This document shows positions 9,950 to 57,001 of a stretch of 64,000 bases of DNA, piece by piece. Positions within the stretch are counted from its first letter, which is position 1, and each line of letters begins with the position of its first letter. Position numbers and translations under genes: made by a program. The DNA lies in the NCBI GenBank assembly GCA_017549145.1, contig JAFYVM010000013.1, positions 41,831 through 105,830 on the forward strand, given 5' to 3'. The notes under the pieces were generated by a model. The model was not told the DNA's origin, did not search any database, and saw only the letters and a program-made list of their open reading frames with translations. The stretch comes from Bacteroidales bacterium (GTDB taxonomy: Bacteria; Bacteroidota; Bacteroidia; Bacteroidales; UBA932).

Positions 9950-10008
9950 GATCCTTCGCTTCGCTCAGGATGACATGACACCTGTCATGCTGAACGCAGT
10001 GAAGCATC
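9950..10008. repeat. Inverted pair of 26-base hairpin elements
   Basis: Two copies of the dispersed element face each other: 9950-9975 forward (GATCCTTCGCT...) and 9983-10008 reversed, with seven bases between. They differ at five positions. Four of these are two compensatory base-pair changes (C-G to G-C in the outer stem, G-C to A-T in the inner stem) and one is in the loop. The pair lies between the aminotransferase stop and manC and could fold into one long cruciform. It may serve as a terminator or processing site, but has no T-run. Confidence 0.8.
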
Positions 10009-18057: not shown

Positions 18058-18083
18058 TGTCATTCTGAGCGAAGCGAAGAATC
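18058..18083 (-). repeat. Dispersed hairpin element, copy with T-A stem pair
   Basis: Reversed copy directly after the TAA of the helicase gene. The outer-stem pair is T-A (ATTCT/AGAAT) where other copies have C-G or G-C, so pairing is kept. Confidence 0.75.
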
Positions 18084-18108: not shown

Positions 18109-20493
18109 ATGAGAAAGATATTCTGTATGATGGTATTGGCGGCGGGGATGATGTGGAGCGCTGCTGCTAAGGAGTTCGAGAGTGTGCCACGTGCATGGAA
18201 GTGGCTGAATAATACTGAGGTTATATTCACTTATGACGGTACATATTATGACAATACTGGCTTCAAGGTTGATGCCCGTACTGGTCGTCGTACTGATGGT
18301 GTGTCCGCTCCAGAGAAGTACGATGATTTTCCTGTAAATCCAGTGGGTGGAGTTAATCTTACATATTCTCCGGATTCGACAAAGATTGCATTTACCCGTA
18401 ACAACGATCTTTATGTCGTTGATATCGCTACGGAGAAGGAGACTCGATTGACTTTTGATGGTAATGAGCTCATCCTCAATGGATATGCTTCATGGGTTTA
18501 CTATGAGGAGATTCTCGGACGTTCGTCTAAATATAAGGCATTTTGGTGGTCACCTGACAGCAAGAAGATCGGTTTCTATCGTTTCGATAACACTGAGGTG
18601 CCTGTATTCCCGATTTACTCTGCATATGGAAAGGATTATGCAGGTCATATTTCCTATCCGCTCCCGTCGCCTCCGGGTTCGCCTAGCCCTAAGGTGACTA
18701 ATCTTGGTTTGGGTGGTTCGCTTAGTGAGACTCGTTATCCTAAGTGTGGACAGACTAATCCGCAGGTTCGTATTGGAGTGGTGGATTTGGAGGAGATCCT
18801 TCGCTGCGCTCAGGATGACAGAGGCGCTCAGGATGACAAAGGGGCTCAGGATGACAGAGGCGCTCAGGATGAGAGAGGTACTCAGAATGATAGTAATGTG
18901 GTGTGGGCAGATTTTGATGAGACTGAGGATCAGTATTTCGGTATTCCGTTCTGGGGACCGGATTCAAAGGAGTTCTTCATTGCTCGTATGCCACGTCTTC
19001 AGAATACGATTGATCTATATGCTGTGAGTGCAGCAGACGGCTCAAAGCGCCATGTGTACAATGAGACCTATAAGACATGGCTAAACTGGTTCAATGGCGT
19101 AATTTTCACCGAGAAGGGCTTGTATATGGCTCGTGAGTTTGAGTCAGGCTGGCAGCAGATTTACTTCCTATCTTATGATGGTAAGGAGTTCCGTAAATTG
19201 ACTTCTGGTACTAACTGGTCTGTGTCATTGGTACGCGTGGATGAGAAGAAGGGCGATGTGTATTTCACTGCCAAGCGCGATGCTACAGTGCGTCAGGCTT
19301 TGTACAAGGTGAATGCTAAGGGAGTGATTACTGCGTTGACAGATCCTGCTTACAATGCTGTGGGAGTAAGTTTTTCTCCTGATGGAAAGTATTTCGTGGC
19401 TTCATATTCAAATGTTACTACTCCTACCAAGGTGGCTGTGTTCCAGAATGATGGTGGCATCGTATCAGCTGGTCATGGCGGTGATATCGAGAAGGCGAAC
19501 CTTACTGGTCCGGTTGCTCAGAAACTTAAGGCTGGAAAGTATGGTTTGAAGGGTCTTGTGGTGGCTGATGCGGCAGGGGAGGATTATGATCCATCGAAGT
19601 ATGCTCTTGGTCAGCTTGTACATATGACTACAGCTGACGGATTTACTCTTCCAGGAATGATTGTGTATCCAAAGGGATTTGATGCTGCGAAGAAGTATCC
19701 GGTGCATGTGGATATTTACGGTGGCCCTAATTCGCCAGTAGTACGCGACAGATGGACTATGCCGAATGCAAATAATCAGTGGTGGTCTGAGAACGGAATC
19801 ATCCAGATCTGGGTGGATCCGCGAGCTGGTGGACATAATGGCCGCAAGGGTCTTGATATGATCTACAGACAGCTTACTGTCAATGAGGTGAAGGACTTCT
19901 GTGCATGGGGTGAGTGGCTTCAGGCTCTGCCTTATGTGAAGGCTGATAAGATAGGTGTAGAAGGTTTCTCATTCGGCGGAACAATGACTACAATGCTGGT
20001 GATGCGTGCTTCTGATAAGTTCCATTATGGAATCGCCGGCGGTGGAGTATATGATTGGGCGCTTTATGATTCGCATTATACAGAGCGCTATATGGATACT
20101 CCTGCTAACAATCCTGAGGGATATGAGGTGTCTAAGGTGCTTAATTATGTGGCGGAGTATCCGGTGGGATATGGTAGATCCTTCGCTGGCGCTCAGGATG
20201 ACAAAAAGGGTGCTCAGGATGACAAAAAGGGTGCTCAGGATGACAAAAAGAGCGCTCAGGATGACAAAAAGGGCGCTCAGGATGGCAAGGTAATGCTGAA
20301 GATTACGCATGGAACGGGAGATGATAATGTACATCATCAGAATACGCTTCTGCTCGTAGATGAGCTGCACAAGGCTCAGAAGAAGTTTGACTTCATGATC
20401 TACCCGGACGGTATGCATGGCTACTACAGCTACCAGGGCGCACACTTCCTCCTCGCAAATCGCGACTTCTGGCTCAAATACCTTTTGGACTAG
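18109..20493 (+). CDS. Dipeptidyl peptidase IV (S9B) with two repeat insertions
   Basis: Exported serine exopeptidase that releases X-Pro/X-Ala dipeptides, probably periplasmic. A signal peptide covers about residues 1-20. A beta-propeller domain (DPPIV_N) is followed by the alpha/beta hydrolase domain with Ser621 (GFSFGG), Asp738 (HGTGDDNVH) and His770 (DGMHGYYS). The 794-residue length exceeds the usual 720-740 because of two low-complexity inserts: residues about 230-262 (GAQDDR-type units) in the propeller and about 690-728 (GAQDDKK units) just before the catalytic Asp. Both arise from the hairpin element found throughout this window and keep the frame. A further unusual Pro/Gly/Ser-rich loop precedes the first insert. 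Catalytic residues are intact, so the enzyme may still work. Confidence 0.9.
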   Translation: MRKIFCMMVLAAGMMWSAAAKEFESVPRAWKWLNNTEVIFTYDGTYYDNTGFKVDARTGRRTDGVSAPEKYDDFPVNPVGGVNLTYSPDSTKIAFTRNNDLYVVDIATEKETRLTFDGNELILNGYASWVYYEEILGRSSKYKAFWWSPDSKKIGFYRFDNTEVPVFPIYSAYGKDYAGHISYPLPSPPGSPSPKVTNLGLGGSLSETRYPKCGQTNPQVRIGVVDLEEILRCAQDDRGAQDDKGAQDDRGAQDERGTQNDSNVVWADFDETEDQYFGIPFWGPDSKEFFIARMPRLQNTIDLYAVSAADGSKRHVYNETYKTWLNWFNGVIFTEKGLYMAREFESGWQQIYFLSYDGKEFRKLTSGTNWSVSLVRVDEKKGDVYFTAKRDATVRQALYKVNAKGVITALTDPAYNAVGVSFSPDGKYFVASYSNVTTPTKVAVFQNDGGIVSAGHGGDIEKANLTGPVAQKLKAGKYGLKGLVVADAAGEDYDPSKYALGQLVHMTTADGFTLPGMIVYPKGFDAAKKYPVHVDIYGGPNSPVVRDRWTMPNANNQWWSENGIIQIWVDPRAGGHNGRKGLDMIYRQLTVNEVKDFCAWGEWLQALPYVKADKIGVEGFSFGGTMTTMLVMRASDKFHYGIAGGGVYDWALYDSHYTERYMDTPANNPEGYEVSKVLNYVAEYPVGYGRSFAGAQDDKKGAQDDKKGAQDDKKSAQDDKKGAQDGKVMLKITHGTGDDNVHHQNTLLLVDELHKAQKKFDFMIYPDGMHGYYSYQGAHFLLANRDFWLKYLLD
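18795..18894 (+). repeat. Hairpin element with 18-base tandem expansion inside a CDS
   Basis: Head copy at 18795-18820 (GATCCTTCGCTGCGCTCAGG...). Its 3' half then repeats as five 18-base units starting at 18805, 18823, 18841, 18859 and 18877, encoding CAQDDR, GAQDDK, GAQDDR, GAQDER and GTQNDS. The last units are more diverged. Confidence 0.85.
20177..20292 (+). repeat. Hairpin element with 21-base tandem expansion inside a CDS
   Basis: Head copy at 20177-20203 has one extra base in the loop, which puts the tail in the same GAQDD reading frame as the first insert. Five 21-base units (starts 20188, 20209, 20230, 20251, 20272) encode GAQDDKK, with one SAQDDKK and a final GAQDGK. The near identity of the units suggests recent expansion. 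Confidence 0.87.
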
Positions 20494-28707: not shown

Positions 28708-28733
28708 GATCCTTCGCTTTGCTCAGGATGACA
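28708..28733 (+). repeat. Dispersed hairpin element in a leader region
   Basis: A full forward copy (loop base changed to T) ends one base before the ATG at 28735, so the start codon follows directly on the GGATGACA tail. Confidence 0.78.
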
Positions 28734-31627: not shown

Positions 31628-34600
31628 TCACTTTAGCAGATGTCCGAGGAAGCGGCGGGCGGTGTCTGCGTCCATTCCTTTGCGCTCGACATAATTGTCG
31701 TACTGCTTTTGGCTGATGCGTCTGATCTGTGGGTATACAGCTTCTGGGTGCATAAAGATCAGACCACAGATACTTGCTTCAGGAGTCATGGCATAGCTTT
31801 CTGTCAGCTGGATTCCCAACGGCCCGGCATGACTATGGCTGTGAGCATGATCGTGGCTACAGCCACATGTGCAGTGCCCTTCTTTGTGCATCATACTTCC
31901 GTCCAAAATTTCCAGTACTTCACCCTTCAAAGTGTGGTCAGGGCAGCTGCTATATCCGATTGCAGGCTTGATGAGTTTGGAGCTTGCATTTATAGTGTCA
32001 TTGAGCCATAGTGATGCCGCCTCTGCCAATGTCATACGCACAGCCTTTCCAATCATGTCCTCGTAGGCATTAGAACATGCCGGGCAACAGCAACCATGCT
32101 CATGCGCCTTGCTTCTCTTGTGAACACAGATAGCGAACATTCCGAAGGCAGACTTCTTGGCAAATGACTCTGGCGCAACAAAATCGCAAAGAGATAGATT
32201 CTTGTCGCCTTCCTGTCTCATCATTGGCCATTTGTGTGTCTTACCGTCTGCGGTAAAGCAGATTTCATTAGCTCTGTTGGCGCTCGCAGGGAAGAATCTA
32301 GCTGACAACATGATCTTAAAATCGGCCACAGCAAGTTCGTCTTCTGCGTCTCTTCTGAGCTGCATCAACTCCATTGCTTCTGGAGATGCGCTTCCGTATT
32401 TGACTCCCCAGATTGCGTAGAACATCTTCCAATCGAAATATGGCAGAATTTCCTCCAATGGAAGTTCCTTGACTGGAATATCAGCAGGGATTTCAGTTAT
32501 ATAGGTGTCATTCTCAAAACGCTGATCTTCTTGTGTTTCCTCTGTATTGTCAACAGCTTCCTCCGCAGGATCTGTGGACTCGTCCCTATTATAAAGTTCT
32601 CTAAGCTTCTTCTGTTCAAGGTGCTGCTCAGCTTCGAACGCCTCTCTGTCAATCATGCATTTCTTTGCGAGAACTGCGGCTGCAGAGGCGTCAGCTCCAT
32701 AGAATACATGGTCATAGAGTGGAGCTAGTTTGACTGCAGTGTGCAGAGCAGAAGTAGTAGCACCTCCAATCAGCAGTGGGGTAGTCATGCCCCTTGCTGT
32801 CATCTCACGGCAAAGCTCTTCCATCTGAAACAGCGATGGGGTAATCAATCCGCTCACTGCGATAATGTCGGCATTCAATTTCTCAGCAGCATCCAAGATG
32901 GTCTCCTTGTCCACCATCACGCCTAAATCATGCACCTCAAATCCATTGCATGTAAGCACAATTCCAGTGATATTCTTTCCAATATCATGCACATCTCCCT
33001 TCACCGTAGCAAGTACCACTTTCTTACGAACACCAGCAGTGGAGTTTAGCTGCTGGCAACAACCCACACTCTCCATGTAAGGAGATAAGGCCTCCACCGC
33101 ATCCCTCATTACCTTTGCCGATTTGACAACCTGAGGTAAAAACATCTTTCCATCGCCAAACAACTTTCCGACAGCCTCCATACCTTCCATGAGAGGTCCT
33201 TCAATAATAGCCACTGCAGAGCCATACTCTGCAAGGGCCTCCTGGATATCAGACTCAAGTGTCTCAGTTCTACCTTTTATCAGGGCATTCTGCAGGCGCT
33301 GGAATACAGGCTGCTTAGGGAGATCCTTCGCTTCGCTCAGGATGACGTGGGAGGTGCTCTGGGAGATATGGGATGCACCAGACTGACCTGCAGCGATTGC
33401 TGTTATTGCTGTGGCCTTTTCAATAAGCCTTTCTGTTGCCTGAGGATCTGTGTTAAAGATTACATCTTCCACGCATTTCAGCAGCTCTGGCTCAATCTCG
33501 TCATATACCTGGAGCATAGACGGATTGACGATTGCCATATCAAGTCCTGCTTTAATTGCATGGTATAGGAATGCCGAATGCATTGCTTCGCGCACGGCAT
33601 TGTTGCCACGGAAAGCAAATGATAGATTAGATACACCACCTGAGGTCAGTGATCCAGGGAGATTCGTCTTGATCCAGCGTACTGCCTCAATGAAATCGAT
33701 TGCATAGAGCGCATGCTCCTCGATTCCGGTTCCGATGGAAAGGATATTAACATCGAAGATTATGTCTGATGGAGATATGCCTGCCTCCTCTGTGAGGAGT
33801 TTGTATGCTCTCTGGCAGATCTCAATTTTTCTGTCGTATGTTGTTGCCTGACCCTGCTCGTCAAAGGCCATCACTACAATGGCTGCTCCGTATGACTTGA
33901 TTTTTCGTGCTTTCTCTATGAATGCTTCTGCACCCTCCTTCAAACTGATGGAGTTCACAATGCATTTGCCCTGGGCATTCTGAAGTCCTGCCAGGATTGT
34001 TTCCCAATGTGAAGAGTCAATCATCAATGCGGCTTTTGCAACTGCCGGATCATTGGAAATGTAGCGTACGAAACGCTCCATCTCACGAGTGCTGTCCAGC
34101 ATTGCATCATCCATATTTATGTCTATGATTCGTGCTCCGTCCTCAATCTGCTTAGCTGCAATCTGCAGAGCTTCGTCATATTTGCCTTCGGATATGAGTC
34201 TGGCAAATTTACGAGAACCTGCCACATTGGTCCTCTCACCGACATTGGTGAAATTGCTGTTTGCCAGATCCACCTTTACGGTCTCCAGTCCGCACACAGT
34301 CAGTGGCTCATCCGTAAAAACCCCCATTTTTGCGGATGAGTCTTGCTTTTTAGGGTTGTCATCCGTAAAAAAACCTATTTTTGCGGACGGGATGTCTTTA
34401 TGTATGTCAGTTTTCAGATCTCTAGGTGCAAGTCCAGAAACAGCCTGTGCGATGGCACGTATATGATCCGGAGTCGTTCCGCAGCAGCCCCCGACAATAT
34501 TCACGAGTCCACGTGATGCTAATTCGCGAACCTGAGATGCCATCTCTGCAGGAGTCTGGTCATAGCCTCCCATCTCGTTTGGCAGACCTGCATTAGGGTA

Positions 34601-45222: not shown

Positions 45223-46511
45223 ACACGAGAAGTAACAAATAGCAGGTTACCTGCTGTGTCTGATTTCAGACCAAAGATATGGGCGTCATCTCCAGAGGTG
45301 ATGCCCAGTTTCTTTCTTAGAGTGTCAGTGTCCATAGGTATGTTTCTCGCTGTGACTTCTGACTTAGGATATGACTGACCGGCAGCTTTGATGCTGCGTT
45401 TGTCGAGAGACGACTGACTGATGATCTTATATGTCTTGCCTAGCTGAGAAAGTGGAGTCTCCTTACCTATTATATAATAGTGTGTGGAGCGTCCGAGTTT
45501 CTTAAGACCGAAACGTTGGCAGAGAGTGTTGAATGCTCCTGCTTTCATCAAGGCTTTGCCTGGTTCAAAAAGGAATTGTGCCTGAGCTATATCTTCCTTG
45601 GTCGCTATTGCTGTTGCGGAGCTCTTCTCTTCTGATGGGGTGAAACGGAGAGATCCTTCGCTTCGCTCAGGATGACATTGGAGCTCAGGATGAGAAGAGA
45701 GTTCGACTGCGGTGATGGTATATTCATCAGACCATTCGCGGTCCATCCAGATGAGAAGTTCCTTGCATTCTCCACCCATTGCAACCACATGTACTTCTCT
45801 ACAGCATTTGCCGAGTCGTTCGCATACCATGGTGATGTCAGCCATTGGGGAGAGTTTAAGCAAGATATTACGGCTCTGAGTGAATAACTCGTCTTTTAGA
45901 GTCAGTACATCTGGTGTGCATTCTTCGATCAGGAAAACTTTCTTTCCAGTCTCGGAACGGCGGGCTGGATCCAAGTATATAATGTCTGGTTGGAAGGTAC
46001 TTAGGATTTGGGAAGGAGATCCTTCGCTTCTCTCAGGATGACAGCTTGTAGAAACTGTGATGTTTTCGACTTGGATATTGATAGCTCCGAGGGCAGCGAA
46101 GTTGTGTCTGGCTGCGTCACAGAGCACGCTGAGCATCTCGCAGTAGAGTACTTTGTCAGCTACTTTAGAGAATGACCATGAATCCACTCCGTATCCACCT
46201 GTGAGGTCGGCTAAACGCATTCTATGATCTGACTCCACAGTTCCTGTCGGACGAGTCTGTTCAAAGATTGATTGAGCATAAGCCGCTTTGAATGTACCGG
46301 TAGCACTGCTGCTGCATTGCTCTGCTGATAGCTTCAGCGGAAAGATAAGTCCCGGATTGTCATACCACTCCTGAACCTTACCTTTCAATTTTCTACGGCT
46401 TTCTATACAATTAACCGCAAGATCGATATCGATTTCGGGCCATTTGGCGCGGTCGAGAATCAATCTTGCAGTATCATCGTTTAGATGCTCCTGTACGAAT
46501 TGAGCTATCAA
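45219..46511 (-). CDS. THUMP-like SAM-dependent methyltransferase with two repeat insertions
   Basis: A 430-residue class I methyltransferase-like protein with the Bacteroidetes THUMP-like C-terminal domain; probable RNA substrate, unproven. Motif I appears as LADLTGGYGVDSWSFS near residues 104-119, motif IV as DIIYLDPARR near 176-185, and the C-terminal domain contains YYIIGKETPLSQLGK and ARNIPMDTDTLRKKLG. Two copies of the dispersed hairpin element are read in frame as CHPERSEGS: at about residues 157-165, between motifs I and IV, and at about 279-287, before the C-terminal domain. The core motifs are intact. Stop overlaps the convergent DUF4301 gene. Confidence 0.82.
   Translation of the reverse strand: MIAQFVQEHLNDDTARLILDRAKWPEIDIDLAVNCIESRRKLKGKVQEWYDNPGLIFPLKLSAEQCSSSATGTFKAAYAQSIFEQTRPTGTVESDHRMRLADLTGGYGVDSWSFSKVADKVLYCEMLSVLCDAARHNFAALGAINIQVENITVSTSCHPERSEGSPSQILSTFQPDIIYLDPARRSETGKKVFLIEECTPDVLTLKDELFTQSRNILLKLSPMADITMVCERLGKCCREVHVVAMGGECKELLIWMDREWSDEYTITAVELSSHPELQCHPERSEGSLRFTPSEEKSSATAIATKEDIAQAQFLFEPGKALMKAGAFNTLCQRFGLKKLGRSTHYYIIGKETPLSQLGKTYKIISQSSLDKRSIKAAGQSYPKSEVTARNIPMDTDTLRKKLGITSGDDAHIFGLKSDTAGNLLFVTSRV
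45652..45695 (+). repeat. Hairpin element plus one 18-base partial unit inside a CDS
   Basis: Head copy 45652-45677, then TTGGAGCTCAGGATGAGA (45678-45695), which repeats the tail. The unit length of 18 keeps the host frame (SSHPELQCHPERSEG on the minus strand). Confidence 0.8.
46018..46043 (+). repeat. Dispersed hairpin element inside the methyltransferase gene
   Basis: Forward copy with one substitution (T at position 14, breaking an inner pair). Read on the minus strand as CHPERSEGS. Confidence 0.8.
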
Positions 46512-56395: not shown

Positions 56396-56461
56396 GATCC
56401 TTCGCTTCGCTCAGGATGACAAGGTGGAGCTCAGGATGACAAGGTGGAGCTCAGGATGACA
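56396..56461 (+). repeat. Hairpin element with two 20-base tandem units, intergenic
   Basis: Head copy 56396-56421, then AGGTGGAGCTCAGGATGACA at 56422-56441 and again at 56442-56461. The unit is 20 bases here, outside any gene, whereas intragenic units are 18 or 21. The last unit abuts the stop codon of the next minus-strand gene. Confidence 0.85.
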
Positions 56462-57001
56462 CTAGAAGATGATGCTGAAACTGAAGATTTCCTTTTCGCA
56501 GAATTCTCCTCTTAATGCAACTGTTCCATCTTCTTTGTTGGCTAACTTCTGTTGCTCTTTCAGCTCAACTGCTACGAAGTCGCCGATTCTGAGTGAGGTC
56601 AGCTGGGATGTGTTGCAGATGGCCTCTTCGAGGAGATCCTTAGCTCCGCTCAGGATGACAGAGGAGTACTGATTGATAGGGGAGACGTTGACCACGAACT
56701 TCTTCTCATCCTCAAATACCACTGGTTGAAACAAAGGATGCGGCAAAATGCTACTCTTGTCAACTACTGTAGAATTACCACAGTACATCAGCATTCCGCA
56801 ACCGATACCATCATAGTATCTCTCTACGAACTTCTTTCCAACGCATTTTCCGGCCTTGCTGATACGTGCAAAAACCACTGGCGTCCAATATATCTCATTA
56901 ACGCACTCGGGAGAGTAGAAATCTTTATTTTCTCTCTCCCAAGTCGTATCAGGGCGGCAGTAACAAAGGTCACTGCCGTATGGTTTGACGATAATATTCA
57001 T
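56462..57001 (-). CDS. Protein of unknown function (179 residues)
   Basis: A cytoplasmic protein I do not recognise. The N-terminal half has conserved-looking blocks (IIVKPYGSDLCYCRPDTTWE, EIYWTPVVFARISKAGKCVG, RYYDGIGCGMLMYC), and the region from about residue 132 (LRIGDFVAVELKEQQKL) resembles the end of fumarylacetoacetate-hydrolase-type proteins, but the fit is weak. One dispersed hairpin element is read in frame as VILSGAKDLLEE at about residues 115-126. It is the third gene of the dnaN-exonuclease group, 15 bases after the exonuclease gene, and may be expressed with it. Confidence 0.68.
   Translation of the reverse strand: MNIIVKPYGSDLCYCRPDTTWERENKDFYSPECVNEIYWTPVVFARISKAGKCVGKKFVERYYDGIGCGMLMYCGNSTVVDKSSILPHPLFQPVVFEDEKKFVVNVSPINQYSSVILSGAKDLLEEAICNTSQLTSLRIGDFVAVELKEQQKLANKEDGTVALRGEFCEKEIFSFSIIF
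56635..56660 (+). repeat. Dispersed hairpin element inside the 179-residue gene
   Basis: Diverged forward copy (GATCCTTAGCTCCGCTCAGG...), read on the minus strand as VILSGAKDL. The outer stem ATCCT/AGGAT is intact. Confidence 0.75.

Follow-up and report, generated by a model that had tools for sequence, protein, structure and literature searches.

A TGTC-tagged hairpin repeat of Bacteroidales and its probable partner, a single-domain GIY-YIG nuclease

The 26-nt element dispersed over a 64,000-nt stretch of Bacteroidales DNA (the whole of which is called the window here) can be described with good confidence as a TGTC-tagged, REP-like hairpin whose probable partner, as judged from sequence comparison, is a single-domain GIY-YIG nuclease (~93 aa) of the Ssn type. 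The pairing of GIY-YIG nucleases with repeats has reportedly already been published as Ssn, and the additions made here are the trans-phylum spread of the element, a left-right bracketing test and a polar 5' ladder of half-elements. The bracketing test names, in a single step, a specific and testable partner for many versions of the repeat, and it offers an explanation of the protein remnants CHPERSEGS and VILSEAKDL; the ladder hints, at the level of sequence, at the place where the enzyme may act. The original prediction, which knew of no mechanism, was right in what it observed of the element, while it missed both the likeness to CGTC/TGTC-tagged REPs and the nuclease gene, the probable partner, that adjoins the hairpin.

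Sequence, fold and class of the element

On its tag-bearing strand the 26-nt consensus reads TGTC-AT-x-CT-GA-R-C-GNA-G-Y-GA-AG-x'-AT-C, that is, five base pairs, a 2x2 GA/GA mismatch, two further pairs and a 3-nt GNA loop, with the unpaired TGTC tag at one end; the sequence had earlier been written as the complement of this strand. The 3' tail is a C, followed by T in 60 of 64 copies of the window's own genome, with no fixed base beyond. Eleven copies had been claimed in the window, and a scan that left the paired positions free recovered ten of these sites at one mismatch or fewer, the eleventh being a variant; the 23-mer core gave nine window matches at up to three mismatches and none in 100 shuffles. 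According to the pattern scan, the copies TGTCATCCTGAGCGAAGCGAAGGATC (9950..9975, minus strand) and TGTCATGCTGAACGCAGTGAAGCATC (9983..10008, plus strand) form an inverted pair, their TGTC tags facing each other across a 7-nt spacer. As had been reported, they differ at five positions, four of which make up two compensated stem pairs (C:G to G:C and G:C to A:T), and the copy at 18058..18083 (plus strand) does carry T:A as its outer pair. The same scan placed on the minus strand a copy at 28708..28733, in which the first loop base G is replaced by A.

Preservation of pairing under substitution, also part of the original prediction, was upheld by permutation tests on two sets. The own-genome set comprised 64 copies with up to two mismatches at 21 fixed positions and the pairing columns free, drawn from 64 pattern places and the window; the pattern used to collect them had both pairs fixed, so that single changes were favoured over double ones and the set is biased against compensation. 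The outer pair X:X' was Watson-Crick in 64/64 of these copies and the inner pair R:Y in 61/64, values reached by none of 5000 permutations in either case. The cross-phylum set held one exact copy from each of 119 listed loci, and each of the two pairs was Watson-Crick in 114/119 (0/5000 permutations), the inner one being partly conditioned because the scan fixed R and Y and left only the outer pair free. By mutual information, the two swapped pairs were the top two among 325 column pairs in both sets. After duplicates had been collapsed to 22 own and 26 cross-phylum distinct sequences, the outer pair still gave 0/5000, and the inner pair 31/5000 (own) and 4/5000 (cross-phylum). The fold energy computed for the 26-mer was no better than that of shuffles and weak on both strands, under a nearest-neighbour model that leaves GNA and tandem G-A stability unscored. 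In DNA, exceptional stability is a property of GNA triloops with a C-G closing pair and of G-A mismatches in tandem. Listed copies in G198 (L220) and G226 (L228) read TGTCATTCAGAG.., where A replaces T at element position 9 and a T:A pair is broken; their neighbouring GIY-YIG proteins are closely related to each other.

CGTC-tagged REPs, in the part of the survey by Di Nocera et al. (2013, PMC3733652) drawn on here, often bear a TGTC tag, open with A-T and T-A pairs and have no dedicated transposase; their stem is 8-9 bp long, their loop 4-5 nt, their short unpaired tail mostly CCA, and their dimers mostly carry the tags outside. Set against this part of the survey, the element shares the unpaired CGTC/TGTC tag at one end and the first A-T and T-A pairs, features that were fixed letters of the search pattern with mismatches allowed, and likewise compensatory stem variants, inverted pairs, intragenic copies, occurrence in several phyla and no Y1 transposase alongside. 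Its stem, in contrast, is interrupted by the 2x2 GA/GA mismatch and capped by a GNA loop of 3 nt, its tail is another one, and it shows a 5' ladder, more phyla and a candidate enzyme. The element is a variant of the CGTC-tagged REP class rather than a member of it, because stem and loop sizes and tail differ. The survey's authors allow that bulged forms may have been missed, equate Neisseria CGTC-1 with dRS3 and do not decide what enzyme, if there is one, mobilises CGTC REPs (PMC3733652). As for inverted pairs, the three close ones of the window's genome (9950/9983, L053 and L061) have their tags inside, while pairs in other genomes, for example L083, L087 and L148 among the matches listed, have them outside.

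Copy number, spread and genomic setting

The window's own genome, an assembly of 2.35 Mb in 78 contigs that is 83% complete, holds 73 copies at one mismatch or fewer to the 26-nt pattern, and the reversed-pattern control gave none. Within its phylum, 83 of 296 genomes carry at least one copy, with a maximum of 134. It had been suggested that the family may be broad, and this is supported by a species-genome scan for the exact element that returned at least 119 stretches from several phyla. The record titles of the matches listed name, among others, Bacteroidales, Acidobacteria, Chloroflexi, Planctomycetes, Verrucomicrobia, Nitrospirae, Nitrospinae, Calothrix and Lachnospiraceae, together with Gammaproteobacteria, Fibrobacter, Patescibacteria, Gemmatimonadales, Calditrichaeota, Caldisericales, Poribacteria and Sulfurihydrogenibium; many of these multi-phylum records come from metagenome bins, which may contain stray contigs. 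At least 120 stretches with the exact element were also found in IMG/VR viral contigs, their viral carriage being putative. Literature searches with the element's sequence words returned, among the matches listed, papers sharing only a 10-mer and none about repeats by title; searches with the peptide words CHPERSEGS and VILSEAKDL found none; and those on GIY-YIG with repeats or ssDNA gave none naming the element among the matches listed.

By a home-made ORF caller, the tagged strand was the coding strand in 50 of the 59 clear cases among the 64 own copies (9 antisense; binomial p 5e-8), and copies lay close after stop codons (median 12 nt, 33 cases) and before ATG (median 18.5 nt, 34 cases). 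Both observations would suit a host-domesticated RNA element, in which the hairpin acts between cistrons in mRNA, on stability or processing, and is kept there by selection, with dispersal secondary. Such a role is nonetheless unlikely to account for the element: the 119 listed loci of other organisms show no strand bias (37 vs 27 of 64 clear cases, p 0.26), 24 of the 64 own copies lie inside ORFs, and hairpins beside nuclease genes would be left unexplained.

The translated remnants in proteins that had been attributed to the family do occur in frame in the window, all on the minus strand. The copy at 33322..33347, which has a CGTC tag, encodes VILSEAKDL within a 1315-aa ORF (MetH-like by eye), and that at 45652..45677 encodes CHPERSEGS within a 430-aa ORF. 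The latter holds a second in-frame element at 46018..46043, where C is changed to A at position 13 and one pair is broken; a further copy, with one substitution in the 3' GA, lies in frame in a 179-aa ORF (56635..56660). An in-frame insertion was also seen in an aldehyde dehydrogenase, its inserted residues being absent from the two PDB relatives among the alignments listed. At the MetH-like site all 18 aligned relatives are without the element, and, the site being a variable linker, the boundaries of the insertion are approximate. In three of the five relatives viewed, this linker carries other GTCA-type-tagged hairpins, starting GTCATTGCCGG, GTCATTGCCTG and GTCATTCCCGG (L365, L363 and L371, in G319, G321 and G303), which look like separate hits on one tolerant linker. 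For the 9950/9983 junction, both flanks, where found in one genome, were non-adjacent, and neither this junction nor the MetH-like linker yielded a clean empty site in the relatives compared.

A GIY-YIG gene beside the hairpin

Clustering of 777 ORFs from the 119 listed loci gave ten families present in at least three loci. The larger ones are, by eye, transport ATPases (6 loci) and sensor kinases (5 loci); one of the two 4-locus families is a single-domain GIY-YIG nuclease, each member lying within ~200 bp of the element (Edaphobacter, two Pedobacter and one Patescibacteria contig). The four proteins tested, of ~93 aa, all passed Pfam PF01541, and a profile built from them found matches in 162 of the 296 phylum genomes. 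Across the phylum, the presence of such a match was not associated with copy number (21/35 genomes with at least five copies vs 162/296 overall, counted by eye), which counts against the partnership, and Y1 matches fared no worse on this scale (26/35 vs 210/296). The test was therefore moved to bracketing and to the genus.

For the bracketing test, 90 GIY-YIG genes were taken, namely the top-scoring match from each of 30 genomes plus 60 places in rough rank order, a part of all matches from which some second copies and contig ends were skipped by no written rule. A tagged hairpin was defined as a [CT]GTCAT tag with five closing pairs within 250 bp of the gene. It was found beside 47/90 genes, on both sides in 32, and at 0/30 loci of a Y1 transposase control; with gene ends set by profile, which matters for the truncated loci L244, L254, L274 and L287, and 260 bp allowed, the count is 48/90, again with 32 two-sided. 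This strict rule gave none beside the other 43/90. The left and right hairpins differ on average by 1.25 edits within a gene and by 7.47 between genes (0/10,000 permutations as low), and they are identical in 15 of the 32 two-sided cases. Over 48 genes, protein and hairpin distances correlate (r 0.315, 0/5000 in a Mantel test with kinship uncorrected), and a flank word of at least 14 nt is shared at 67/90 GIY-YIG loci vs 8/30 Y1 loci. The window's hairpin type (up to two mismatches at fixed positions, within 300 bp) stands beside 18/90 genes, whose proteins are clustered (11 changes vs a shuffled mean of 17.4, 0/500 as low) but do not form a single clade.

It is quite unlikely that the GIY-YIG gene is a mere passenger near hairpin repeats spread otherwise, by slippage or recombination. 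In favour of such a reading, tandem clusters and ladders show the element to be subject to recombination or slippage, and 14 of the 35 element-rich genomes have no GIY-YIG match; against it, the hairpins to the left and right of a gene match each other, and protein distances correlate with hairpin distances.

An ordinary REP moved by a Y1 (RAYT/TnpA-REP) transposase is very improbable, and the family search in the 296 genomes led to the rejection of a RAYT partner, Y1 genes not being associated with the element. The earlier statement that no RAYT-like gene is present holds for the window's contig; three weak Y1_Tnp matches were found on other contigs of the genome. These ORFs of ~305-318 aa (G000:C9:6800-7066, C15:97844-98029 and C71:20609-20794; L013-L015), one of which passes the Pfam cut-off, have no element at up to five mismatches in their loci. 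One element of G173 does lie ~640 bp from a Y1 gene. Against this stand the 0/30 Y1 loci with a tagged hairpin within 250 bp; the 29/30 whole loci without an element at up to five mismatches, the thirtieth having one 4-mismatch match; the similar share of Y1 matches in genomes with at least five copies (26/35) and overall (210/296, counted by eye); the 46, 36 and 59 copies of G005, G243 and G280, which have no Y1 match by eye; and the tag, which is TGTC and not GTAG. The TnpA-REP gene that had been proposed as a check does not accompany the element in these genomes and loci. In the portions of the REPtron literature used here (PMC6006769, PMC2817692), RAYT/TnpA-REP genes with GTAG REPs share the layout of a small nuclease gene flanked by a genome-dispersed hairpin, with another nuclease family and another tag.

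In the genus of the window's genome, a GIY-YIG match was found in 6 of the 37 genomes searched. These six carry 0, 15, 19, 42, 57 and 66 copies of the element, as against 0-5 in 27 of the other 31 and 11, 13, 24 and 73 (the window's) in the remaining four (Mann-Whitney p 0.003, kinship uncorrected). Within the genus, the gene adjoins the window's hairpin type only in G319, G322 and G323, which with 42, 57 and 66 copies rank 2-4 of 37. In the first two, the hairpin stands on both sides of the gene with the tags outside; in G323, it stands on one side, tag outside, and a longer variant on the other. In G301 and G306 the gene lies beside another hairpin, TGTCATTTCGAGCGTAGTCGAGAAATC (type B), and in G314 beside still other types. 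G301 has 17 copies of the type-B hairpin and none of the window's element, whereas the counts in other genomes speak against a link of this hairpin with the gene (5 in G306, which has the gene; 20 in G321 and 14 in G300, where none was found). The window's own 83% complete assembly ranks first of the 37 in copy number and contains no matching single-domain gene; its nuclease gene would have been lost or would lie in the unassembled part. Its only GIY-YIG match (G000:C37:2748-3047, L213) sits in a 609-aa frame, UvrC by eye, with an element ~48 bp from the domain.

Homologues of the G322 protein were also found by tblastn in 32 of 72,556 plasmid records, some of them chromosome-sized, and in none of the phage records. 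At all four homologue loci fetched from these 32 records, tagged hairpins stand beside the gene, under a slightly looser tag rule. The Neisseria gonorrhoeae homologue shares 45% identity with the G322 protein, and its gene is surrounded by 16 CGTC hairpins; that of Sinorhizobium has three tagged hairpins, all on one side; that of Planktothrix has three near-copies of the window's hairpin distributed over both sides; and that of Spirosoma has tagged hairpins on both sides. GIY-YIG ssDNA nucleases (Ssn), reportedly the subject of work by Chenal, Veyrier and others in Nature Communications in 2025, are said to cut such repeats (NTS). By the Ssn/NTS criteria, the two systems have in common a single-domain GIY-YIG protein beside CGTC-tagged repeats, and a cognate repeat that is both multicopy and beside the gene is found in G319, G322 and G323. 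The hairpin sequence and the host differ, the window's own assembly is without the gene, and cleavage by the present nucleases is putative. Two of the plasmid-filed records, NZ_CP119140.1 and NZ_CP119142.1, are Neisseria gonorrhoeae of chromosome-like size (2.17 Mb each). On Planktothrix agardhii plasmid p1 (L511), the GIY-YIG gene has as its neighbours, on one side, a gene annotated as an MmeI-type restriction enzyme and, on the other, one annotated as the DISARM helicase drmA.

Proposed mechanism and the 5' ladder

With a GIY-YIG nuclease as the probable partner, the enzyme would recognise tag and hairpin on single-stranded DNA, exposed during replication, transcription or DNA uptake, and would cut the strand so folded. 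Repair from the cut end could then copy the hairpin to new sites, and the same repair may duplicate the 5' arm with neighbouring bases, leaving a polar ladder.

The ladder consists of tandem half-elements directly 5' of the tag, each made of the 5' arm and a few other bases in a unit of 17-21 nt. In the window, three 18-nt units (18821..18874, minus strand) precede the element at 18795..18820 (minus strand, pattern scan), and two 20-nt units (56422..56461, minus strand) precede the one at 56396..56421 (minus strand), which lies between two ORFs. A single 21-nt unit (20204-20224) stands 5' of the variant at 20177..20203 (minus strand), a 27-nt form with one extra loop base that was found by its 23-mer core, and one unit (45678-45695) stands 5' of the element at 45652. 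Among the own copies, a same-strand arm occurs within 70 nt on the 5' side in 24/64 (23 when the inverted pair, with a unit of 49, is set aside) and on the 3' side in 0/64; among the 119 listed loci, an arm occurs within 40 nt in 19 on the 5' side and in none on the 3' side. Taken together, 42/183 copies have a ladder 5' and none 3'. In 18 of 24 cases, the match between the last unit and the element extends over 10-15 nt, most often 13, which brings it to the loop base. The ladder is interpreted here as a sign that repair or replication resumed from a 3' end at this base; a stalled fork that slips, with no nuclease involved, would also make one.

It is conceivable, though doubtful, that hairpin and GIY-YIG gene form an autonomous selfish unit across bacterial phyla, which would nick a folded single strand and re-prime from the nick. 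On this view, the 3' end at the nick would have left its mark as the 5' ladder of half-elements that stops at the loop base, and CGTC REPs in general would be non-autonomous copies of the unit. Beside GIY-YIG genes themselves, hairpins of the window's type have a ladder on the 5' side in 4 and on the 3' side in 0 of 30 cases, and the polarity is weaker for other hairpin types (9 vs 4 of 164).
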